A DNA stretch of 44,278 nucleotides from Chlamydiota bacterium (GTDB lineage Bacteria; Auribacterota; Tritonobacteria; UBA1439). Under the pieces are notes generated by a model. It worked only from the letters and a program-made list of their open reading frames with translations, was not told where the DNA came from and did not search any database. The position numbers were made by a program, and so were the translations under genes. The stretch covers positions 1-44,278 of the forward strand of contig JAAYCL010000004.1 of assembly GCA_012729785.1 (NCBI GenBank). Reading direction: 5' to 3'. Positions 8,839 through 22,807 of this stretch are shown piece by piece (within the stretch, counting starts at the first letter, position 1; each line of letters starts with the position of its first letter).

Positions 8839-10056
8839 TTACGCCCCGAACTTGGCCAGTTTGCGCGCGTGTGCGAGCAGGATCGGCATCAGGGCGACCG
8901 ACGGCCGGAGCCCCAGCGCCCCCGCCGCGCAGTGGCGTTCCGTGAACCGCGCCGCCCCGGCGGGCCGGGAGAACGGCGAGTGGATGAGCAGCGGCACCGG
9001 GTGCCACGAATGCATCGCGAGGCGTGCGGGCGTCGAGTGGTCCGCCGTGACGGCGAGCACGTCCGGCTTCAGGGCCAGAATCGCGGGGAGCATCGCGTCG
9101 AGCTCCTCGACCGCCGCCACCTTCGCCCGGAAGTCGCCGTCCTCCCCGCGGCTGTCGGTCTTCTTGAAGTGCAGGTAGAAGAAGGTGTGGGCGTCGAAGT
9201 TCCCGGCGAGCGCGTCGAGATCCTCGGCCGCGCTCGCGGTGTGCGGCCCCACCGTCATCCCGACGAGCCGGGCGAGGCCGCGATACATCGGGTACTGCGC
9301 GACCGCGAACGCGTCGAGCCCGTACCGGTCGGCCATCGTCGGGAGCGGCTCGTGCTTCGCGAACCCGCGGAGGAGGAGCATGTTCCCGTTCTTCTCCCCC
9401 GCGAGGAGTTGCGCGGCGCGCGCGACGAGCTCGTTCACGATCGATGCGGTTTTCTCCGCCGCGGGCGCGCAGGCGCGCGCGGGGAGGGGGGGGACGCCGA
9501 GCTCCTGCGGATCGGTGTCGTGGATCTCGCCGGAGAGCCCGTCCCCCCTGAGGACGAGCAGCCCCCGATGCTCCTTCACCGTCTCGATGAAAAGCTCGCA
9601 GCCCTCGGGGGCCTTGAGGCCGGCGCGCAGCAGCCCCACGAGCCGCCGGTTCTCCTCGGTGCTGGGGCGTCCGGCGCGCCGGTCGACGAGGTTCCCGCCG
9701 CCGTCGACGGTGGCGAAGTTGAACCGCGCCGCGACGTCGCGCCCGGTGAGCGGGAAGTCGATGCCGAGCCCCTCGAGGACGCCGCGGCCGATGTTGTACC
9801 GCACCGGGTCGTAGCCGAAGAGGGCGAGGTGCGCGGGGCCGCTGCCGGGGGTGACGCCGGGCCCCACCGGTTCGAGGAGGCCGAGGGAGGAGACGGGGGC
9901 GAGGAGGTCGAGGTTGGGCGTGCCCGCCTCCTCGAGTTCCGTGAGGCCCACGTGTTTCGCCGGAAGTCCCCCGAGCCCGTCCGCGACGACGAGCACGATC
10001 CTGCTCCCCGTCTTCTCGACCAGGCCCCCGATCAGTCCCGCGTAGTCCCCGTTCAT
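8839..10056 (-). CDS. apgM: 2,3-bisphosphoglycerate-independent phosphoglycerate mutase, archaeal type
   Basis: Interconverts 3- and 2-phosphoglycerate in glycolysis/gluconeogenesis (EC 5.4.2.12) using two metal ions and a phosphoserine intermediate. The 405-residue ApgM-type protein shows VVADGLGG (first metal Asp), the nucleophile region TPGSGPAHLALFGYDP, FNFATVDGGG, and the C-terminal alkaline-phosphatase-superfamily motifs TADHSTP and HSWHPVPLLI. ATG 10056 follows seven G bases, giving a good ribosome binding site; the upstream extension is not conserved. It is the first gene of a leftward run through rnhB, archease, rtcB, amrS and the Mth938-like gene. An extended -10 element lies just upstream. 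Confidence 0.93.
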   Translation of the reverse strand: MNGDYAGLIGGLVEKTGSRIVLVVADGLGGLPAKHVGLTELEEAGTPNLDLLAPVSSLGLLEPVGPGVTPGSGPAHLALFGYDPVRYNIGRGVLEGLGIDFPLTGRDVAARFNFATVDGGGNLVDRRAGRPSTEENRRLVGLLRAGLKAPEGCELFIETVKEHRGLLVLRGDGLSGEIHDTDPQELGVPPLPARACAPAAEKTASIVNELVARAAQLLAGEKNGNMLLLRGFAKHEPLPTMADRYGLDAFAVAQYPMYRGLARLVGMTVGPHTASAAEDLDALAGNFDAHTFFYLHFKKTDSRGEDGDFRAKVAAVEELDAMLPAILALKPDVLAVTADHSTPARLAMHSWHPVPLLIHSPFSRPAGAARFTERHCAAGALGLRPSVALMPILLAHARKLAKFGA

Positions 10057-10185: not shown

Positions 10186-11946
10186 TCACGGAACGACGGC
10201 GAACGGGGTGTGCGCGAGGTTGCTCGTGCGCGAGGCGCCGTCCAGCGGGCCGGCGCCGGGGGCGGTGAGCACGGCGTACCAGGCGTACGGGCCGGAGGGG
10301 AGGGACTCGGTCACTGGAAATGCGCCGACCTGCGCGTCCATGTCGTCCGTCACGCCGAGACCCGTCGCGATGGGAACGGGGGACGGCGACCATCGCCCCC
10401 CCGGCGCGAGAAAGAAGAGCCGGCCGCCGGGGAGGAGCGCGGCGACGTAGCCGTCGCAGACGGTATGCGCGGATTGCGCGCCGGCCCCGACGATCGCGGA
10501 GAGTTCCAGCCGCCCGCCGGGGGAAAACGCGTTCCCGTTCAGCACGAGGGAGACGGAGTGAAGATCCGGGTCCGTCACGGGGGGCGGCTCCACGGTTCCG
10601 GGGGAGAGCGTCCTGTACAGGTTCAGCCTGCCGGAGGTACGGACCATTCCCCGGAGTGGAGCGAGCGTTTCCGCGCCGTCGAGTATCTCCGATATGATCT
10701 CCGTGTTGCTCGCGCCGGGGGTGCGGGCCCAGGCCAGGGCCGCCGCGCCGGAGACGTGCGGGGCCGCCATGGAGGTGCCGCTCATCAGCCTGTATCCCCC
10801 TCCCGGCACGGTGGAAAGTATCTCGTCGCCGGGGGCGGCGATGTCCACCGACTGCGGGCCCCAGCACGAGAACCAGGCGAGGTTTCCGTTCCGGTCCGTG
10901 GCGGCGACGGAGATCACGTTCGGGGACGGGGAGCTCGACGGGTAGATGGGGGCGGCGTCGTTGTCGCTCGAGGAGTTCCCGGCGGCCGCCACGACGATCG
11001 CCCCCGCCGCATCCGCCGCGCGTATCGCATCCTCGAGCGCCTGCGAATACACATTCAGTCCCCACGAGCAGGAGATCACCCGCGCCCCGGCCTTCGCCGC
11101 GTAGTCGATCGCCTGCACCGCTCCTCCCAGCGACCCGGCGCCGTCCGGTCCCATGAAGCGGAGCGGAATGAGGCGCGCCTTCCAGCCGACGCCCGTCACC
11201 CCGCGGCCGTTGTCGCCCGCCGCCCCGATGATCCCCGCGACGTGGGTTCCGTGGCCGTATGCGTCCCCGGGGGCGTTGTCGCCGGAGAAGAAGTCCCATC
11301 CCCGCACGTCGTCGACGAAACCGTTGCCGTCGTCGTCGATCCCGTTTCCGGGGACCTCGCCGGGGTTCGTCCAGATGTTGGCGGCGAGGTCCTCGTGCTC
11401 GTAGTCGATGCCGGAATCGACGACCGCCACGGGGACCTCCCCGCCGGTGAGGATCTCCCACGCGGCCCGGGCGTCTATGTCGCCGCGCCCGTCAGCCTCC
11501 GCGAGGGCGTAGAGTTCCCCGAAGAGCGGGTCGTCGGGGATCTTCTCGGCATGGATGATGTAGTTGGGCTCGGCGTACTCCACGAGGTCGGGCGCCTCCG
11601 CGCGGAGCTCCGCGGCGGCCTCCTCCTCGGTCAGGCCGGCGGGAATCGGCATGCGCCAGAGGCCGCCTCTCGAGACGCGGGCGGCGGAACTCTTCCGGAC
11701 GGCTGCCGAGCGCGCGGGGAGCGCGGCGGGGGACGCGGCGGCGCGCATCTTCACGAGGATCTCCCCCGCAACGCGGGGGCAGCGGTCGGCTGCGGACATC
11801 CCGGCGCTTGTCCGGGGTAGGGCGGGGGAGGGGAGGAGGCAGATGCAGCCGGCGAAGGCCCCCGCAAACAACCGGATGACGGTGTCGAAATGCCGGGCAA
11901 TTCTCTTCCGGCAGGGTACGGCGTGGACGAGCGTAGGCGCAACCAT
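10186..11946 (-). CDS. Exported subtilisin-like serine protease (S8) with C-terminal beta domain
   Basis: A 586-residue exported protease. A basic N terminus and hydrophobic stretch (about 22-45) act as signal or anchor. An inhibitor-like propeptide (about 60-130, ending YAEPNY) is followed by the S8 catalytic domain with Asp in VAVVDSGIDYEHEDL (about 174), His in GHGTHVAGI (about 233) and Ser in SGTSMAAPHVSGAA (about 388). A calcium-type insertion, NGIDDDGNGFVDD, follows the Asp motif. After a PPP linker, residues about 455-586 form a beta domain resembling the C termini of the proteins at 142, 12667 and 26076. The short leader carries a c-di-GMP-I-like riboswitch ending about 18 bases before the start codon. 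Substrate is unknown; shedding of surface proteins is one possibility. Confidence 0.9.
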   Translation of the reverse strand: MVAPTLVHAVPCRKRIARHFDTVIRLFAGAFAGCICLLPSPALPRTSAGMSAADRCPRVAGEILVKMRAAASPAALPARSAAVRKSSAARVSRGGLWRMPIPAGLTEEEAAAELRAEAPDLVEYAEPNYIIHAEKIPDDPLFGELYALAEADGRGDIDARAAWEILTGGEVPVAVVDSGIDYEHEDLAANIWTNPGEVPGNGIDDDGNGFVDDVRGWDFFSGDNAPGDAYGHGTHVAGIIGAAGDNGRGVTGVGWKARLIPLRFMGPDGAGSLGGAVQAIDYAAKAGARVISCSWGLNVYSQALEDAIRAADAAGAIVVAAAGNSSSDNDAAPIYPSSSPSPNVISVAATDRNGNLAWFSCWGPQSVDIAAPGDEILSTVPGGGYRLMSGTSMAAPHVSGAAALAWARTPGASNTEIISEILDGAETLAPLRGMVRTSGRLNLYRTLSPGTVEPPPVTDPDLHSVSLVLNGNAFSPGGRLELSAIVGAGAQSAHTVCDGYVAALLPGGRLFFLAPGGRWSPSPVPIATGLGVTDDMDAQVGAFPVTESLPSGPYAWYAVLTAPGAGPLDGASRTSNLAHTPFAVVP

Positions 11947-11963
11947 GATCGCACTCTTACCCC

Positions 11964-12092
11964 TGGCAGCTGACTGCCGTATTCGGGAATTAGCCCGAAC
12001 GTAGGCTCTGAAGCTTTGCGTCCGGCCCGTGCTTCAAGGCCGGTCGGGGTGTTACCCCGTCCCACCCTTTCGGATGGGTTGCCTTTTTCAGG
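11964..12092 (-). promoter_or_regulatory. c-di-GMP-I (GEMM-I)-like riboswitch with a two-hairpin insertion
   Basis: Read on the minus strand it begins AAAAAGGCAACCC, then a 7-bp stem closed by a GAAA tetraloop (CCCAUCC-GAAA-GGGUGGG), then GGACG. It resumes as GACGCAAAGC, followed by CCUACG...UACGG, which looks like a GAAA tetraloop receptor, and ends ACGGCAGUCAGCUGCC, which closes P1 with GGCA. These are the marks of the GEMM-I aptamer. Two extra hairpins (stems CGGGGU/ACCCCG and CCGGCC/GGCCGG, about 45 bases) separate GGACG from GCAAAGC. The element ends about 18 bases before the subtilase ATG, so control of translation is plausible. Ligand and function are inferred from sequence only. Confidence 0.7.
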
Positions 12093-12666
12093 GGACGAGC
12101 CCGATCGCACGTCAGGAGCGCCCCCCGAGCCAAAGACCGTTATGTTGTATCGATCGGTTTCGAGCGTGCCGCTCGTATCCCTCCCGTTCAATCCACTTGA
12201 AAGTTACCTGCAATGTGACGGTCCGTCAAGGGCACCGGGGATTTTCGGAACCTTCGGAATCAGAGGGCGACGAAGCATGATTCGGGGCGGAGGATTGGGG
12301 GGCGTGCGGGTGGAAATGGCGCACGGGCCGCGGGAGGGCGCGGAAGAAGAACCGGGACGGCGTCTCGCGGCATGCCTGCGGCGGCACGAACGCCGGATTT
12401 CGCGTCTCTTCGCGCCCTCCCGCGGCCTCGTCGCGCAACGTGGACAGACGGGTCCCGGCGCGAAGCTTCCGCCTGTCCGGTGAAGCCGCACGGGCACGCG
12501 CAGCGAGGATCCGCGCCGGGAGGCTGCGCGCTTACACGGGCGCGGGGTGGAAGCGGCGGGGAGAGGGAGGCGGGAACTTCTCTGCACGGTCAGCGGGGAG
12601 ACGCTCTGGAATGCAGGGCATTCCGTTGCCGCGATCTCCCCGTTGCCGTGCCATCACGCCGTCCGT
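12093..12666. other. Long spacer between the DUF11 protein gene and the subtilase riboswitch
   Basis: About 570 bases without a convincing gene. On the minus strand a sigma-70-like pair TTGACG (12224-12229) and TAACTT (12201-12206) with 17-bp spacing could drive the subtilase transcript. A weaker sigma-54-like string, TGGCTCGGGGGGCGCT, lies at 12117-12132, just before the riboswitch. A nested palindrome lies at 12595-12641. Short open frames here have biased, low-complexity products and no ribosome binding sites. Confidence 0.5.
12595..12641 (-). terminator. Nested palindrome downstream of the DUF11 protein gene
   Basis: Outer arms GGGGAGA (12595-12601) and TCTCCCC (12635-12641) enclose a perfect inner stem GGAATGC-AGG-GCATTCC (12608-12624). 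It lies about 25 bases past the stop codon on the minus strand. It could terminate transcription, but there is no U-tract, so a Rho-independent role is uncertain. Confidence 0.4.
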
Positions 12667-14805
12667 CTAGGGTACCAGACGCACGGTCGTTATGTCGAAG
12701 CCCAGAACGTCCTTTTCGTCGGGCGGGACGCCCGCCGGCATGATCCTGAGCGCCACTGCGTAGTTGCCGAACGCGGTGCACGCGGTGTGCGTGAAGAGGA
12801 CGCCGCACCAGTAGTCCTGGATGAATATCCCGCTGTAGTACGGAACGAACCCCTTCAGGATGATATTGCCGTACAGCACGGAGTAGATCGTCCCGCCCGG
12901 AGCCCTGACCAGCAGGTACAGGTCGAACGGGTTGTCCTGGACCATTGCCTTGAGCGGCAGGCAGGCGGAGACGGTGATCGTATCCCCCGGATGCGCCTCA
13001 TAGGTTGACAGGTTCATTGTCATCCTGTCGCACACGCAGATCCGTGGCGTTGGCGTGGGTGTAATGACCACGAACGGCGTGGTCGTAGGCCAGGGTGTCG
13101 GTGTGGGGGTCAGTGTCGGCGTCTGTGTGGGCGTGTTGGTCGGCGTGTTCGTGGGCGTGTTGGTCGGCGTTTGTGTCGGCGTCTCGGTGGGCGTCTCCGT
13201 GGGCGTGGGCGTGATCGTCGGCGTCTCGGTGGGCGTCTCCGTGGGCGTGGGCGTGATCGTCGGCGTCTCGGTGGGCGTGACGGTCGGCGTACTGGTCGGA
13301 CAGAGCACTCCGGTCGGCTCGGAGGCGCTGTTGTTGCTCGGGTCGGGGTCAGCCGTAAGGGCGGAGACGCTCGCATTATTGCACAGGTCTTCGGTCCCGT
13401 CGCACGGGCCTGTTCCGCCTGCACCGGTTGTCGAAGCCGAGGGAAGCACATCGACGGTGATGGATATGGCCGCGGTCTCGCCGGGAAGCATGAAGCCCAG
13501 ATCGAAGGTGAGTGTCTGCCCGACCTGGTCGACCGGGGAGGGGACCGCACTGACGAACGAAGTGTCGGGATCCAGCGTGTCGGTGACCGTGACCTGGTTC
13601 GCGACGGTGTCCGCGGAATTGTTGGTGACCTCCACGGTATAGGTGAATCGATCCCCGCAGTAGACCGGGTCGCGGTCGTCGCTCTTGACGATCGAGAGGT
13701 CCGCGTTGGAGGTAATGAACTCCTGCACCCTTTGGACCGGGACCGTCTGGCTCCCCGTGCTGATGGCCGCTCCGCTGCCCGAAACGGCGCTGATCAGGCG
13801 CGATGGGACGTTGCCGGAAACCTTCGGGGGGAACGGCATGGGGTTCGCGAGGACGAGCCATATCTCGACCACGACCTCGTCGCCGTCGTCGAGCCCGCTG
13901 ATACCGAACGTCCCCTGGATCTCGTCCGCGGTGGTGAGCCACGAGTACGAGTCCACCTTCTCGTCCCCGTCGAGGTTCAGATTCGCCCCGTCGCTCGTGT
14001 CCACGAACGCGCACAGGACCCCGTACGCCGCGTCGTAGCCGAACGGGGCGCCCGATGTCATCTCCGTATTCCACCCCGCGACGAATGATATAGCCCCTCC
14101 GTCCGCCGCGGTGTCTCCCGACACGCGGATCAGGATCTCGAACGGAACGATCTGGCCGAGGCCGAGCGTGGCCGGAGCGAGCGACTCGATCGACTGTTTC
14201 GGGTAGCCGAACGTCGCCTCATCGACCCCTTGCCCCGGGGGCGGGTCGATCGGGTCCTCCGCCGTCCCCTGCGAGCCGGAGGGCGCCGGGCAGACGATCT
14301 CCGAGGGGAGGAGCTTCATGTAATCCTCCGGTTCGGCCGCGCTGAAGTTGAGGGCGTAGGAGACGTTGGCATCGATCGAGAGCGCCAGGTTGGCGTAGTC
14401 GACCGCCTCGTCGGCCTGCGCGCCGAGTATCACCTCCTGCTCGGCGGGGGCCGCCTCCCCGAACTCCGGGGTGCCGGAGTACTCCTGCACAATCATGTAA
14501 TCTCCGCCCTGAAGCGCGGGGAACACCAGGGTCCCATCCGGGCCGGTGGTCGCCGCGCCCACCTGTTCCCAGGCGCCCGATTGCAGCCCGTGCAGGGAGA
14601 AGACGCCGAGCTCGAGGGGCGGCTCCTCCTCGTCGCGCACGCCGTTCCCGTTCAGATCCCCGTACGAGTTCACCAAAATCGCCGAGGAACCGCCGTTCTC
14701 CTGCGGTTGCAGCGGCGGCGGGGCGAGCAGCAGGACCGTCGCCGCGGCCAAGGCGAGGCGGATATCCAGCCGCCTTGCATCTCGGGCAAATCGTTTCATT
14801 TTCAT
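12667..14805 (-). CDS. Exported SdrD-B-like/DUF11 protein with long Thr-Pro linker
   Basis: A 712-residue exported protein. After a signal peptide (about 1-35) an SdrD-B/Cna-B-like domain follows ([20 protein letters not shown]...[12 protein letters not shown], about 47-110). Next is a ~240-residue domain of unknown type, then a DUF11 repeat ([20 protein letters not shown]...[11 protein letters not shown], about 368-490). A 90-residue linker of TPT.TPT repeats leads to a C-terminal beta domain (about 593-712, starting CDRMTMNLS, ending TTVRLVP). Such proteins are usually cell-surface or extracellular adhesion or structural proteins. ATG 14805 follows GGGGGAAG. It lies 39 bases after the stop of the GspE/PilB-type gene and is probably co-transcribed with it, which would link it to pili or secretion. 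Confidence 0.8.
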
Positions 14806-14844: not shown

Positions 14845-16812
14845 TTAATCCTCCGGCGTGACCCGCAGTATTTCCCCGATCGTCGTCAGTCCCTCGAACG
14901 CCTTTTCCAGGCCGACCATGCGGAGCGTCTTCATCCCGTCGCGCACGGCGGCGCGCTTGATTTCGTTCGCCGGCACCCGGGCGGAGATGAGGGCGCTGAT
15001 GGCGTCATCCACCGTCAGCGCCTCGATGAGCGCGAACCTTCCGCTGAAGCCGGTGTGCATGCAGGCGGGGCAGCCGGCCCCCTCGCGCAGGGAGGGCGTC
15101 CCCGCGACGTTTGAGCGGGGACCGACCATGCCGCCAAGCTCATCCTCGGATACGTGCGCCTCCCGGCCGCACTTGGCGCAGATCCTCCGCGCGAGCCGCT
15201 GCGCCGCCACGAAGCGCAGGGACGAGGAGAGCAGGTACGGCTCCACCCCCATATCGATGAGCCGCGTGATCGCGCCCGCGGCGTCGTTCGTGTGCAGCGT
15301 GGAGAAGACGAGGTGGCCGGTAAGGGCCGCCTTGACGGCGATCTCCGCGGTCTCGTAATCCCTGATCTCCCCGATCATGATGACGTTGGGGTCCTGTCGG
15401 AGGATCGACCGGAGCCCCGCGGCGAAGGTGAGCCCTATTTCCGGGCGGGCCGCGACCTGGTTGATTCCCTCGATCTCGTACTCGATCGGGTCCACCACCG
15501 TCACGATGTTGATCCCCGGCTTGTTGATCTCCCGGAGCGCCATATAGAGGGATGTCGATTTCCCGCTTCCGGTGGGCCCGGTCATGATGATCATCCCGTG
15601 CGGCGCGCTGGCCGCGCGGCGGAACTCCTCGAGCCCGCGCGCATGGAAGCCGAGCGTATCAAGAGAGAACCCCTTGAGCGCCAGGGTGTCGAGCACGCGG
15701 ATGACGATCTTTTCGCCGTAGCCCGTCGGGAGGCACGATACCCTGAAGTCGATCTCCCGCCCCTCCACCTGGGCCCGGAACCTTCCGTCCTGCGGGCGCC
15801 GACGCTCGGCGATATCCATCTCGGACATCACCTTGATCCGCGAGACGATCGCGTTGTGCATCTGAAACGGCGGCGGCGACTCCTCCTGGAGCACGCCGTC
15901 GACGCGGAACCGGAGGCTGGTCGTTTTGCTCTGGGGCTCGATATGGATGTCGCTCGCCCGCACCATCACCGCGTGTCGCAGCATGCAGTTGACCGTCCGG
16001 ATGACGGAGGAGCTCCCCGATGCCGCCAGAACCTCGTTGAGGTCGATCTCCTGCGGCTGGCGCGCGGCAAAGGAGATGCCCGGCACCGGATCGAGCGCCT
16101 CCCCGGCGATTTCCTCGATTGCCACCTTGAACGAGTAGAACGCCTCGAACCTCTGGCAGAAGTCGTCATGGGTGCAGAGCACCGGGGCGATATCGAGGCC
16201 GGTGATCTCGTGTATGTCGTCGGCCGCCAGGATGTTGAACGGGTCCACCATCGCCAGGGTGAGCCGCCGGCGCATCGCCGCGATCGCCAGCACCTGATAG
16301 CGCATCGCGATGTGCCGCGGGATAAGGGGCACAACGTCGGGGACAGGCGTGAAGCGGTTGAGATCGAGCGGGGGGATGCCGATACGGCTCGCGCAATCGG
16401 CGGGAGGGGGGAGCTCCCCGCTTCCCGCGGCGGGGTTGTGCGCTGTCTGTGTCCACGCTCGCGCCGCGCCGTAGTTCGCGGCGAGCGCAGCATCCAGCTC
16501 ATCCGGGGCGGAGTAGAAACAGAGGATCGTGCCTCCCGCAAGCCTCTGCATAACGGCAAGGACGGCATCGTCCAGATCGCAGTCGCTTGCCACCGTCACG
16601 ACCGAGCCGTGCCGATCGATCGGCATCACGCGGTGTTGCCGCGCAAACGATTCCGGTATGACGCTGAGAAGCGCGACATTGACCTCGATCCGGGAGAGGG
16701 GGAGATACGGGTATCGGTACTGGCAGGCGATAGTTGGCCCGGGCAGTCTGGGAGCGATGAACGATGCGACACGTGAGGTTCCCCGGGGCTGTAATTCCCT
16801 GCGCATGTCCAT
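14845..16812 (-). CDS. GspE/PilB-type secretion or pilus-assembly ATPase
   Basis: Hexameric ATPase powering type IV pilus extension or type II secretion at the inner-membrane base. The N-terminal half carries two GspE-N-like domains (PYLPLSRIEVNVALLSVIPE and DVVPLIPRHIAMRYQVLAIA). Then come Walker A GPTGSGKST, the Asp box FRVDGVLQEE, Walker B VIMIGEIRDYETAEIA and the His box STLHTNDAAGAITRL. A four-Cys zinc motif (CAKC ... CPAC) is typical of PilB/GspE. ATG 16812 is chosen for its AGAGGGGG ribosome site; GTG 16836 has none. A near-consensus sigma-54 promoter ends about 60 bases upstream. PilB versus GspE cannot be decided, because no other pilus or secretion genes are in the window. Confidence 0.9.
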   Translation of the reverse strand: MDMRRELQPRGTSRVASFIAPRLPGPTIACQYRYPYLPLSRIEVNVALLSVIPESFARQHRVMPIDRHGSVVTVASDCDLDDAVLAVMQRLAGGTILCFYSAPDELDAALAANYGAARAWTQTAHNPAAGSGELPPPADCASRIGIPPLDLNRFTPVPDVVPLIPRHIAMRYQVLAIAAMRRRLTLAMVDPFNILAADDIHEITGLDIAPVLCTHDDFCQRFEAFYSFKVAIEEIAGEALDPVPGISFAARQPQEIDLNEVLAASGSSSVIRTVNCMLRHAVMVRASDIHIEPQSKTTSLRFRVDGVLQEESPPPFQMHNAIVSRIKVMSEMDIAERRRPQDGRFRAQVEGREIDFRVSCLPTGYGEKIVIRVLDTLALKGFSLDTLGFHARGLEEFRRAASAPHGMIIMTGPTGSGKSTSLYMALREINKPGINIVTVVDPIEYEIEGINQVAARPEIGLTFAAGLRSILRQDPNVIMIGEIRDYETAEIAVKAALTGHLVFSTLHTNDAAGAITRLIDMGVEPYLLSSSLRFVAAQRLARRICAKCGREAHVSEDELGGMVGPRSNVAGTPSLREGAGCPACMHTGFSGRFALIEALTVDDAISALISARVPANEIKRAAVRDGMKTLRMVGLEKAFEGLTTIGEILRVTPED

Positions 16813-16868
16813 GGACGCGCCCCCTCTGCGTGGCACCGAAGCCGTGCCACGACCTGCATGTCTGGAAT

Positions 16869-17791: not shown

Positions 17792-19543
17792 TCAGCGGGA
17801 CGGAAGAGCCGGCGGACGGCGGCTTACACCGCTCTTCTTTTTTGGGCCGACATCCATGCGGGCGAGGCGGCGGTACAGCGTCGCGCGACTGATGCCGAGG
17901 AGCTGGGCAGCCCGGATGCGGTTTCCTTCCACCATCTGAAGCGTGTCCAGGATATCCCGGCTTCCGCCCGAAGCGCGACCGCGCCTGCCCACGATCTCCG
18001 GGGGGAGATCGGAGGGCTGGATCGCGGCGTTTCGTGACCTGATGACGGCGTACTCCATGGCGCTTTTCAGCTCGCGGACGTTTCCGGGCCAGCCGTAGTC
18101 GAAGATAAGGCGCATGGCGTCCTCGCTCACCTCCCGCACGTTCTTGCCGCTCGCGACGCAGCACGCGCTCAAGAATCCACCCACGAGGAGGGGGATATCG
18201 CCGCGGTGCTCGCGCAGGGGGGGGAGGCTGATCCTGGCAACGCGTATCCGGTAGAGGAGATCGGAGCGAAAGGCGCCCTCCTTCTCCATGCGGGTCAGGT
18301 CGCGGTTTGTCGCGGCGATGAGCCGGACGTCGACCCTTCGCGGTTTCGATTCCCCGAGGCGCACGATTTCCTTCAACTCGATTGCGCGCAGCAGGTTCGA
18401 CTGGAGCGCGGGCGGGATGTCGCCGATTTCGTCGAGGAAGAGCGTTCCGCCCGCCGCGGCCTCGAAGAAACCCTGGTGGTCTTCGATGGCCCCCGTGAAC
18501 GCCCCGTGACGGTGGCCGAAGAGCTGGCTGGCGAGGAGGGGCTCCACCAGTCCGGCGCAGTTCACGGCGATGAACGGCTTCTCCCGGCGGGGGCTCGCGG
18601 AGTGGAGCGCCCGTGCGACCAGGTCCTTCCCCGTGCCCGTCTCCCCTTCGATGAGGACGGTCCAGTCGACCTTGGCCATCTCCTCTATCTGGCGGTAGAT
18701 CCTTCGCATGGCGTCGCTGCGGCCGACCAGGTCATGGAACCGATCCTGCTTGCCGAGTTCGCTGCGGAGCTGCCGGGCCTCGGTCACATCGTAGAAGTAG
18801 AAGATCTTGCGTTTGCCGTCGCGGGGATCATCGCACACCTCGACCTCGAACCAGTAATGCCGGCTGCCGGGCGCCGCCGTCCGGACCGACACCCGCGAGC
18901 GCTCCCCGGGCGGCCGCGCGCACATGGCCTTGAGCTCCTCCGCCTCGCTCTTGGAGAATCGGAACAGCCGCTCCCAATGCCGCCCCAGCGCGTTGTCCCG
19001 GCTCACGCGGAAATACTCCTCGCCGGCGTGGCTCAGGAAGACGATCCGGCCGCCGCCGTCGGTCATGGCGATCGGCATGCGGAACTGGTCCAGAACCGCG
19101 ATGACGTTGCCGTGGCTCTTCTCGATCTGGGCGAGCGCGTCGCTCAGTTTCGCCTCCGCCTGTCCCCGCTCCAGCGCGTAGCGCATGCAGCGGCGGAGCG
19201 TCCTCCCGTCCACCTGGTCCTTGACGAGGTAATCCTGGGCCCCCGCCTTGACCGCCTCCACCGCGAGAAGCTCGTCGTCCATACAGGTCAGGACCACGAT
19301 CGGCACGCCCCCCGCGCGGCCCTTGAGCTCGCTGAATCTCTCGAGGCGGCGGTTGTCCGGGAGACTCAGGTCGAGGAGGACGAGCCCGACCCCCCCCTCG
19401 CCGATGCGCGCGAGCCCTTCCGAGAGACAGGCCGCGCGCACGACCTCGAACGGGGGGCCGTCCGTGTCGAAGCACATCCCCTCGATCAGGTCCGCCTCCG
19501 CCCGGTTGTCCTCGATCAGGAGGACCGTGGTCGCTTCCGACAT
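17792..19543 (-). CDS. NtrC-family sigma-54 activator: receiver, PAS, AAA+, Fis-type HTH
   Basis: A 583-residue response regulator that would remodel sigma-54 RNA polymerase. The receiver domain (about 6-120) has LVLLDLSLPD with the phospho-acceptor Asp and VLTCMDDE. A PAS domain follows (about 155-265), not standard in NtrC. The AAA+ domain has Walker A GETGTGKD (about 301), the sigma-54-contacting loop GAFTGA intact, FLDEIGDIPP, and R-finger region LLYRIRVARISLPPLREH. The C-terminal helix-turn-helix is DTLQMVEGNRIRAAQLLGIS. ATG 19543 has AAGGGG upstream. It overlaps the end of the diguanylate cyclase gene by 28 bases, so the two are co-translated. Its likely targets are the two dyad/sigma-54 promoter sets just downstream. 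Confidence 0.93.
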   Translation of the reverse strand: MSEATTVLLIEDNRAEADLIEGMCFDTDGPPFEVVRAACLSEGLARIGEGGVGLVLLDLSLPDNRRLERFSELKGRAGGVPIVVLTCMDDELLAVEAVKAGAQDYLVKDQVDGRTLRRCMRYALERGQAEAKLSDALAQIEKSHGNVIAVLDQFRMPIAMTDGGGRIVFLSHAGEEYFRVSRDNALGRHWERLFRFSKSEAEELKAMCARPPGERSRVSVRTAAPGSRHYWFEVEVCDDPRDGKRKIFYFYDVTEARQLRSELGKQDRFHDLVGRSDAMRRIYRQIEEMAKVDWTVLIEGETGTGKDLVARALHSASPRREKPFIAVNCAGLVEPLLASQLFGHRHGAFTGAIEDHQGFFEAAAGGTLFLDEIGDIPPALQSNLLRAIELKEIVRLGESKPRRVDVRLIAATNRDLTRMEKEGAFRSDLLYRIRVARISLPPLREHRGDIPLLVGGFLSACCVASGKNVREVSEDAMRLIFDYGWPGNVRELKSAMEYAVIRSRNAAIQPSDLPPEIVGRRGRASGGSRDILDTLQMVEGNRIRAAQLLGISRATLYRRLARMDVGPKKKSGVSRRPPALPSR

Positions 19544-20505
19544 GCAGCCCCTTTCGATCGCCCCCCCGTCTTCCGGCGCGCGCCCGAAAGGCCGTTGGCC
19601 CCCATCTTGACGGCGTACATCGCCGCGTCCGCGCGCCTGAGCATCTCCTCCAGCGAGCACGGTTTCCCGGGCTCGCAGTGCATCGCCCCGACGCTCATCG
19701 TCAGGCGTAACCCGCGTTTCTGCCGCTCGTTGCGGGCGCTGATCCTGTCGTGCAGGCGCTCGATCAGGTCGTCGGGAGGCGCCGCGGCGGTGCCCATCGC
19801 GAGGACCGTGAACTCGTCCCCGCCGATCCGCGCAATGATGTCCGATTCACGGAAGGTCGACTTGAGGATCCGCGCGATTTCGATGAGCGCGCGGTCCCCC
19901 GCCGCGTGCCCGAAGCCGTCGTTGATCCGTTTCAGATTGTCGACGTCCGCGAAGATCATGGAGAGCCCCTGTTTAAGCCGCCGCTCCATCCGCACCTGCT
20001 GCATCGCGAGCGCCGAAAACCCCCTCCGGTTGTAGAGGCCGGTCAGGTCGTCCCGTATGGAGAGCGACTGCACTCTCTGCTGAAGCTTATGCCGCTCTAT
20101 CGAATAATGGACAGAGCGCCGGAGGATATGGCGGTTCATGTCGGCTTTCGAGATGTAATCCTGGGCGCCCTCGTGCAGCGCTTTCGTCGCGTTCTCCTCC
20201 TCGGCGCAGTTCGTGAGAATCACCATCGGAAGGTCGGGGTGGCGGGCCCGCATCGCGCGGTACGTATCGAGTCCACTCGAGTCTGGAAGCATCAGGTCGA
20301 GTATCACGAGGTCGATCCCCCCCTCGTCGAGGCGCGCCAGGGCTTCCGCGAGGAGCGGCGTGCACTCCACACGGTATCGCAGGTCGTTGGCGTAGTCCTC
20401 CGGCCCGCTCTCTTCGTCGGAGAAAAGCTTCGCGATGAGGGCTGCCTGGGCCTCGTCGTCCTCGACGAGAAGAAGCCGAATTCGGGTATCCCTATCGTCC
20501 TTCAT
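19516..20505 (-). CDS. Response regulator diguanylate cyclase (REC-GGDEF)
   Basis: Makes c-di-GMP from two GTP (EC 2.7.7.65). The 329-residue protein has a receiver domain (about 8-130; LVILDLMLPDSSG carries the phospho-acceptor Asp; VILTNCAEEENA) and a GGDEF domain (about 150-315). The latter shows DDLTGLYNRRGF, FADVDNLKRINDGFGHAAGD and an intact RIGGDEF. The inhibitory I-site RxxD (RESD) lies exactly five residues before GGDEF, so product feedback is expected. ATG 20505 is chosen because the upstream extension lies within the histidine kinase gene. It overlaps the kinase gene by 14 bases and the sigma-54 activator by 28, so the three form one operon. Confidence 0.93.
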   Translation of the reverse strand: MKDDRDTRIRLLLVEDDEAQAALIAKLFSDEESGPEDYANDLRYRVECTPLLAEALARLDEGGIDLVILDLMLPDSSGLDTYRAMRARHPDLPMVILTNCAEEENATKALHEGAQDYISKADMNRHILRRSVHYSIERHKLQQRVQSLSIRDDLTGLYNRRGFSALAMQQVRMERRLKQGLSMIFADVDNLKRINDGFGHAAGDRALIEIARILKSTFRESDIIARIGGDEFTVLAMGTAAAPPDDLIERLHDRISARNERQKRGLRLTMSVGAMHCEPGKPCSLEEMLRRADAAMYAVKMGANGLSGARRKTGGRSKGAACRKRPRSS

Positions 20506-22807
20506 CAGAACCCCCGTGCGCGGCTCCCGCGCCGTTCCCGGCGGGCGGCTCCGCAACGGCATCGCCCGCCTTCCTGTCGGGTATCGTGAAGCGGAACGAT
20601 GCGCCCCTTCCCTCCGCCGACTCGACCCAGACACGGCCGCCGTGCGACTCGACGATCTTCTTTACGATGGCGAGCCCCAGCCCCGTCCCGTGCCGGTTCC
20701 CGCCGGCTCGCGGCCGCTCCATGGGGGCGAAGATCCGTTCGAGGTCCGCCGCCGAAACGCCGATTCCGTTGTCGCGGACGGAAAAGATCCACTCTCGCTT
20801 CCCTCTCCGGGAGGATATCCGGATCCGCAGCGGCTTCGACCCGTGGTTGTTCAGGGCGTTCGACACGAGATTCTGAAAGACCTGGACTATCTGGGAGGGG
20901 ACGGCGATCACCGTCGGCAATTTCTCCACCGTCACCTGCGCGTCGAGCGCGCTGACCGCTCCCCGGAGGTTCGCGAGCGTGGCCTGCACGATCTTGCCGC
21001 AATCGACCGGGCCGGCGGGTTTCCTCCGCGTCCCGATCCGCGAGTAGGTGAGGAGATCGCAGATGAGCGCATGCATCCTGTCGATCGCCCCCATGCAGGG
21101 GGTGAGGAAGTTCGCGAGGGAGGGGGCTGCCGACGCGCTCAGGTTCTCCTTCAAGAGGTTCAGGTAGCCGGAGAGGGTGTTCAGCGGAGACAGGAGGTCG
21201 TGCGAGGCGATGCCCGCGAACTGATCGAGGTCGCGATTTGAGGCCCGCAGGCTCTCCGTCATGCGGCGCAGCTCGTCCCGCTCCCGCTCGATCGCGGAAA
21301 GTTCGACGCCGGAACCTCGGTACCCCTCGAAGTTCCCGCTCTCGTCGAGGATGGGGAAGGCGTTGATCGAGAGAACCGTCTCGCGGCGATCCTTGCGGAC
21401 GAAGACCATCCGGGATTCTTGGAGGCGCTTCCCGGCCGCGAAGGCGTTCCGCGCCTCCGCATCCCCGGGGGAGAGCAGGTCGTGAATGTGCATTGTGCCC
21501 AGAAATTCTTCGGGCGCATACCCCACCAGCCTCTTGCTGACGGCGTTGGAGTAGGTGAGGCGCCGTGCGGCGTCAGTTTCCCACACCCATTCGCTTGTGA
21601 GCTCTGCGAGCCGCTCGAACCGCCGCGCGGCGGACCTCGTCTCCTCCTCTATCCGCTTTCGCTCCGAGATGTCCCTGACGATCGCAATGACGCACTTGAG
21701 CCCCCCCACCTCCGCGGGGGACCTGCGCGCATCCACGAAGATTCTCCGCCCGTCCTTGCGGAGCATCTCCGTTTCACGGCATGCGGTCTCGGTCCGGGAC
21801 CGGGCCGGCGGCCGCGCGGCCTCCTCCCTCGGCACGAGGTCGCGCACCCGCATCGATAGGAGCTCTTCCCGGCTGTAGCCGAGGAGGGCGGAGGCGGTGT
21901 GATTGGCCTCCAGGATTTCCCCCTCCGCGGACTCGATGAAAATGGCGTCTTTCACGCGTTCGAAGACGACCCTGAATCGCTGCTCTCTTCCCTTCAACGC
22001 CTCCTCGAACCGCTTCTGCGCGGTGATGTCCCGGCCGATCCAGACGCTCCCGATCCAGTTCCCGGAGAAGTCCAGGAGTCGGGTGCCGATGACGCTGAGC
22101 ACCCGCGGTTTGCGCGGCGGGGCGGAGAGGGTGATCCGTCCCCATCACTGCTTCCCTCTCTCGAGCGTGCGTGACGCCGACGGGGGGATGGGGCGCTCCC
22201 CCCGCAGGGCAGGCAGTGTCGCCACGTTCTTCCCGATGATGAGGGCCCGCGTGAGGCCGAACAGGCGCTCGGCCGATGCATTCAGGTCGCGGATCGTGCC
22301 GTCAAGCGCGGTGACGAGGACCCCCGAGTCCATCGTGTCGAAAACGGATGATTCGTCCCCGGACGGCTTCTTGTCCGGGAACTGCTTCGCGCATGCGAGC
22401 ATGTAGTTCTCGAGGTGGAGCTGCACGATGGTGGAGCTGACGGATACGCGGACCAATCCCCCGTCCTTCCTGCGGATCACCCCCTCCCGCAGAAGCGTTT
22501 CGGTGTCCCTGCGGGCATTGATCTCGCGGGCGTAGCTCCAGGAGGCGGAGACGGTCGGGTCTATGTCGGCGACGGAGAGGCGGAGAAACTCCCGCCGGGT
22601 ATAGCCGGAGACGAGGCAGGTGGTTTCGTTGACATCCAGGAACCTGCCCGAGTGGGGATCGATGACAGACGCGCAGCCACGCGTCTGGGCGCAGAGCCGA
22701 TGGAGGGCCCGAGACTCCCGCTCCCGGCCGCGATCACCCTCCGCCGACACCTCTGCGGGAGCGCATCCGTGACCTTCAATTGCCCCGACCAATCGGCGGA
22801 GCGGCAT
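20492..22807 (-). pseudogene. Multi-PAS sensor histidine kinase interrupted by an in-frame TGA
   Basis: Two halves share one reading frame. The upstream half (ATG 22807, after GAGGG, to TGA 22147-22145) has one PAS domain (ASVIDPHSGRFLDVNET) and the first half of a second (TMDSGVLVTALDGTIRDLNA). The downstream half (stop at 20492) begins mid-PAS (VLSVIGTRLLDFSGNWIGSV) and holds two more PAS domains, then the H-box FAGIASHDLLSPLNTLSGYL and an ATPase domain (N-box QNLVSNALNN, DNGIGV, GTGLGLAIVKKI). The TGA is followed by TGG within a segment reading KQ-stop-WGRITLS, where intact homologues usually have Trp. It is a nonsense mutation, a sequence error, or two separate polypeptides; an internal start near 22102 could still make an active kinase. 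It heads the operon with the cyclase and sigma-54 activator. Confidence 0.8.

Follow-up and report, generated by a model that had tools for sequence, protein, structure and literature searches.

Genomic context of the riboswitch

The window (the whole stretch of DNA that was analysed, 44,278 nucleotides) carries a c-di-GMP-I riboswitch aptamer directly in front of a gene for an exported protease, both on the minus strand, and the following genes lie at the locus:

10186..11946, minus strand: exported subtilase of 586 aa, the putative regulated gene (PF00082, 1.8e-55, plus a Fervidolysin-type prodomain; start region conserved in the homologous leader L002)
12667-14805, minus strand: DUF11 protein with long TPTETPT-type repeats, adjoining the subtilase
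14845-16836, minus strand: type II/IV secretion ATPase in which MshEN occurs in two stretches
19516-20634, minus strand: response regulator REC-GGDEF, a putative diguanylate cyclase with GGDEF and RxxD inhibitory-site motif intact

The N terminus of the 586-aa protein is signal-like. Its regulation by a riboswitch was part of the original prediction, of which the arrangement, i.e., an aptamer preceding a PF00082 gene, is plainly present, and control appears probable. The subtilase recurs as a type of regulated gene, since c-di-GMP-I aptamers also precede subtilase genes at G002:C81 and G009:C71 and, as weak matches, at G002:C85 and G002:C125. Some 7.5 kb separate the riboswitch from the REC-GGDEF gene upstream of it, and the MshEN domain of the secretion ATPase is one that binds c-di-GMP in relatives.

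Identity of the aptamer

A cmscan search with RF01051 (c-di-GMP-I/GEMM-I) returns a minus-strand match at 12093-11962 (44.4 bits, E 1.4e-5), which covers model positions 1-87, i.e., the full length, and leaves a 40-nt stretch inside P2 unaligned. As the gathering score is 35 bits, the aptamer lies above threshold despite the insert, which bears out the predicted GEMM-I riboswitch and corrects its strand to minus. It is the sole c-di-GMP-I match in the genome (2.59 Mb scanned); none was found in the genus mate G001 (80% complete). The elements of the domain are:

11960..12094, minus strand: whole c-di-GMP-I riboswitch domain, from the P1 5' to the P1 3' strand (RF01051, and P1 complement read in the sequence)
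12089..12094, minus strand: P1 5' strand CCCCUG, perfect complement of CAGGGG at 11965-11960
12061..12083, minus strand: G20-G21-C22, then upper P2 with GAAA cap (RF01051 alignment; numbering from PMC4744006, PMC6456294)
12013..12019, minus strand: GCAAAGC, i.e., G45-C46-A47 and the start of the P3 5' strand (C22-G45 and G21-C46 in 15/15 members, see below)
11968..12015, minus strand: P3, with receptor-like CCUACG (12005-12000) and UACGG (11981-11977) (RF01051 alignment)
11960..11965, minus strand: P1 3' strand CAGGGG, part of which falls within the likely ribosome-binding region 11964-11954 (sequence and folding)

Read along the RNA, the order is CCCCUG-AAAAAGGC-AA-CCCAUCC-GAAA-GGGUGGG-AC-[GGGGUAACACCCCGACCGGCCUUGAAGCACGGGCCGGAC]-GCAAAGC-(P3)-GCUGC-CAGGGG. 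In the alignment to RF01051, GGC at 12083-12081 corresponds to G20-G21-C22 and the C at 12059 to C44, and the GCAAAGC that begins at 12019 opens with G45-C46-A47.

The ligand of the Vc2 riboswitch is contacted by G20, A47 and C92 (PMC4744006), and according to the A20/G20 rule a G at position 20 predicts c-di-GMP and not cGAMP (PMC6456294). In the window, position 20 is a G (AAAAAGGCAA) and not the A of GEMM-Ib, A47 is flanked by G21-C46 and C22-G45, and a GCC at 11967-11965 that aligns to the model on the 3' side of the junction provides the counterpart of C92. An interhelical C-G pair is universally conserved and is C36-G90 in Vc1 (PMC4744006). By the 8-nt offset of the two numberings, C36 of Vc1 becomes C44 of Vc2. 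With a partner in Vc2 that we take to be G83, the window offers candidates for this pair, namely the C at 12059, which could alternatively close the first inserted hairpin, and the AG bulge of P3. P2 is capped by GAAA, and the receptor-like CCUACG/UACGG of P3 has two differences from the canonical tetraloop receptor motif, CCUAAG/UAUGG. Because the pocket residues are kept and G20 is present, c-di-GMP would still be the ligand expected by default.

The window aptamer thus resembles the RF01051 type Vc2 in its GAAA-capped P2, G20, A47 and 3' GCC with C92, as well as in the receptor-like motif of P3, a P1 formed from the flanks and a downstream gene for an exported protein, but differs from it by an arm of 39 nt and two hairpins, which separates C44 from G45 and turns lower P2 into a four-way junction. 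It has clan and overall fold in common with c-di-GMP-I-GGC (RF03167) and GEMM-Ib (3',3'-cGAMP); however, the latter differs at nucleotide 20 and the former has a model of its own, whereas the window aptamer has G20 and is reported under RF01051.

A two-hairpin arm in lower P2

In the sister genome G002, the nearest homologue of the subtilase (G002:C81, 53% identity) is preceded by an ordinary aptamer, L002, which scores 82.1 bits. The two leaders align almost without a break over P2, P3 and the surroundings of the start codon, and the comparison isolates the insert as a single clean block of 39 nt that is extra in the window, compared to the gain of about 45 bases in the original prediction:

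12020..12058, minus strand: 39-nt insert between C44 and G45-C46 (missing from L002; 14 other distinct aptamers have one at the same position)
12045..12059, minus strand: hairpin hA, CGGGGU-AAC-ACCCCG (MFE and centroid folds; the equivalent helix covaries across members)
12022..12043, minus strand: hairpin hB, CCGGCCU-UGAAGCAC-GGGCCGG (MFE and centroid folds; covariation)

Two extra hairpins had been foreseen, and hA (12059-12045) and hB (12043-12022) do fold in the sequence, the insert being more stable than dinucleotide-shuffled versions of it (z -2.5 to -3.2). The foreseen location in the three-way junction has to be revised: the insert does not interrupt the P1/P2/P3 junction itself, but sits in lower P2 adjoining A47, where it makes P2 a four-way junction of P2 base, P2 top, hA and hB. 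Point mutations in lower P2 alter both affinity and selectivity (PMC9262584).

Recurrence and covariation

A plain RF01051 search of the phylum, in which matches were collected without regard to an insert, revealed three further aptamers with a ~44-nt insert in the identical place (L031 and L032 of genome G017, and L033 of G006), and aptamers without insert are the majority. A covariance model built on the G017 members (R1) detects the window aptamer at 46.7 bits, plus a new member, L205, in G009. The refined models R2 and R3 added members outside the phylum (L212, L213, L216, L220, L222 (genus g229), L214, L233, L234, L235 (genus g144) and L242 (G327)). In total, 15 distinct aptamers, some of them orthologous, carry a two-hairpin insert at exactly the same site; those beyond the first four came from models that reward two hairpins, so that "always two hairpins" is partly a matter of selection. 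They represent at least four phyla, since G251, G158, G327 and the window fall in separate ones: the phylum of G251 comprises 6 genomes and that of G158 comprises 3, and G327 belongs to neither of them, nor to the phylum of the window. The genes behind the other insert-bearing aptamers mostly encode exported or type IV pilin-like proteins, as judged by their N termini, and such proteins form the usual GEMM regulon.

Several candidates were set aside. L243, picked up by R3, is an ordinary aptamer and was excluded from the final counts, and the long aptamers L008, L010, L014, L017, L026, L027, L030 and L034 have their extension in P3, not P2. A search of 84,980 genomes with the pattern AAAGGCAA..GAAA..GRCGCAAAGC gave 26 stretches, none of which is an insert-bearing aptamer by sequence inspection; a Rfam scan of 20 of these 26 loci found no aptamer where the pattern matched. 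This pattern is too strict, because several members have TCGCAAAGC or CTGCAAAGC, and a looser one was discarded, as chance matches are to be expected. As a separate observation, L007 and L024 (G024:C3:9255-9344 and 9393-9482) form a tandem pair of c-di-GMP-I aptamers.

A MAFFT-only alignment of the inserts misplaced hA of the window, and model-based alignments were therefore used. In A7, the alignment of the 15 distinct members to R3, which is fitted to the structure, 96.1% of pair cells are paired, compared to 34-49% with partners slid by 1-3 columns, and the covariation score is 0.861, compared to 0.07-0.20 in the slid controls. Changes on both sides occur in 6/6 pairs of upper P2, 6/6 of hA and 10 of the 11 of hB; the pairs of the P2 base, G21-C46 and C22-G45, are invariant. 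Folded alone, the insert of most members places hA directly after C44 and hB up to G45, with a 0-nt linker between them, a geometry found in 1-9% of shuffled inserts (computed for seven sequences). Between lineages, the insert sequences are unrelated and the arm loops have no conserved sequence.

The recurrence at the same spot with unrelated sequences is more suggestive of a structural variant than of an accident confined to one genome. The two-hairpin insertion expected to make this an unusual aptamer is real, but it is not unique, the same architecture being present in at least four phyla. In the literature searched, which leaves much work on riboswitches beyond its reach, no insertion of a two-hairpin arm was found described, and the window aptamer appears to be a structural variant, hitherto unnoticed, within a riboswitch class that is itself known. 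A comparable case is provided by the expansion segments and peripheral domains of large RNAs, such as the expansion helices of rRNA, which are added where a trunk helix tolerates them, with the core undisturbed and the sequence unconserved. The arm is likewise grafted on a trunk helix with unconserved sequence, but in an aptamer of ~90 nt and beside the ligand-contacting A47.

Proposed mechanism

The ATG of the subtilase gene lies 15 bases beyond the end of the RF01051 match and 13 nt beyond the P1 3' strand CAGGGG, the GGGG of which has a predicted unpaired probability of about 0. An upstream stretch (12106-12097) can pair with 11956-11947, extending the cover to the ATG. No terminator is predicted in 11900-12400. 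Since P1 overlaps the ribosome site and no terminator is predicted, a ligand-stabilized P1 would presumably act by repressing translation. As ligand-free folding already predicts a formed P1, the premise of switching is what is generally known of the c-di-GMP-I class.

The resulting hypothesis, to which we assign a probability of roughly 0.6 as a whole, is that a c-di-GMP-I riboswitch with a tuning arm and P1 as OFF switch controls the exported subtilase, and the c-di-GMP machinery nearby (REC-GGDEF, MshEN ATPase) was counted in its favor. Binding of c-di-GMP would stabilize P1 (CCCCUG/CAGGGG) and thereby cover the ribosome-binding region before the ATG, such that high c-di-GMP would lower the translation of the protease. 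Having almost no unpaired linkers, hA and hB could stack together as well as onto the base of P2, which would leave the GAAA tetraloop, C44, A47 and the P3 receptor unmoved. The most likely role of the arm would then be to tune the folding or stability of the pocket, either by stabilizing lower P2 or by shaping its folding. The analysis demonstrates an aptamer with a folded, recurrent and covarying insert and a P1 that overlaps the ribosome site; we infer ligand binding, the direction of switching and this tuning role.

Aptamers usually grow at peripheral loops, which in the c-di-GMP-I class means the apex of P3. The arm-bearing RNAs grow beside A47 instead, with strict geometry, without sequence conservation and in several phyla, and they mark the C44/G45 position of lower P2 as a site where this widely employed riboswitch permits grafting, which could be useful for biosensors. 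Moreover, aptamers with and without the arm in front of one gene family provide a natural series in which junction tuning of the ligand response might be studied.

Possible origin of the insert and alternative roles

REP/MITE-like dispersed palindromic repeats are known as a class, and genome G017 has one whose copies include its aptamer inserts: a ~46-nt two-hairpin palindrome that is also dispersed outside riboswitches (L152-L164), that occurs in tandem in aptamer L120, and that in L144, L149 and L150 has a further copy nested within its first hairpin loop. Locus L122 of this genome is also among those with the ~46-nt repeat, and several copies outside aptamers have a longer conserved flank in common. 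In L118 and L119, likewise of G017, the P3 5' strand carries a different inserted repeat, of the type ATCCTGAGCGAAGCGAAGGAT. An origin of the inserts from mobile palindromes is thus plausible from this one genome, which would illustrate a route for such elements into regulatory RNAs. The window insert differs in being single copy (at E <= 1 it matches one place only in its own genome), and for the window such an origin is only suggested, by a 5-bp direct repeat, GGACG, that flanks the insert (12062-12058 and 12023-12019), is present once in L002 and is possibly a target-site duplication. A similar pair, GGAC/GGGACG, is seen in L205.

These observations raise the possibility, which we regard as unlikely but serious, that the arm is passenger DNA without a function of its own and that lower P2 is merely the site where a mobile palindrome does the least harm. 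The dispersed, tandem and nested copies in G017, the direct repeat that is single in the sister leader, and the mostly insert-free aptamers of the phylum would all fit. Apart from the single copy in the window's genome, it is the behavior of the arm in families f201 (L212/L213/L220) and f132 (L234/L235) that speaks against a mere passenger: the arm is kept in several species, with conserved stems and differing loops, which suggests constraint.

The arm might also be a second input or antagonist that senses a protein, a metabolite or its own alternative pairing and competes with the aptamer. This relates to a complementarity that had been pointed out from the start and is indeed present:

12009..12014, minus strand: GCUUCA, complementary to the UGAAGC of the hB loop (12036-12031); possible alternative pairing, unconserved

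Pairing of the hB loop with GCUUCA would unmake the base of P3. It comprises six consecutive Watson-Crick pairs with the geometry of an H-type pseudoknot (linker ACGCAAA), and a 6-bp match has a chance of about 0.5% in the next 11 nt, but of about 9% anywhere in the 120-nt leader. The proposed pseudoknot is therefore geometrically possible in the window, but the other 14 distinct members, in which hairpin loop and P3 5' strand match over 1-4 bp, all lack it (0/14), and a role as competitor is also hard to reconcile with arm loops that have no conserved sequence; we consider it improbable. Scarcely less doubtful is the broader notion that the arm adds a second input (protein, ligand or self-pairing) beside the pocket, such that c-di-GMP would be read together with another signal and palindromic repeats would have been domesticated repeatedly at one permissive site.

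Finally, it is most improbable that the insertion broke the aptamer and left a decayed relic: the aptamer is among the lower-scoring RF01051 matches of the phylum and the base of its P3 is weak, with a 3-nt bulge, but a similar bulge exists in the insert-free relative L030, the tetraloop, G20, A47, the 3' GCC and all of P3 are intact, and the insert architecture recurs in four phyla.
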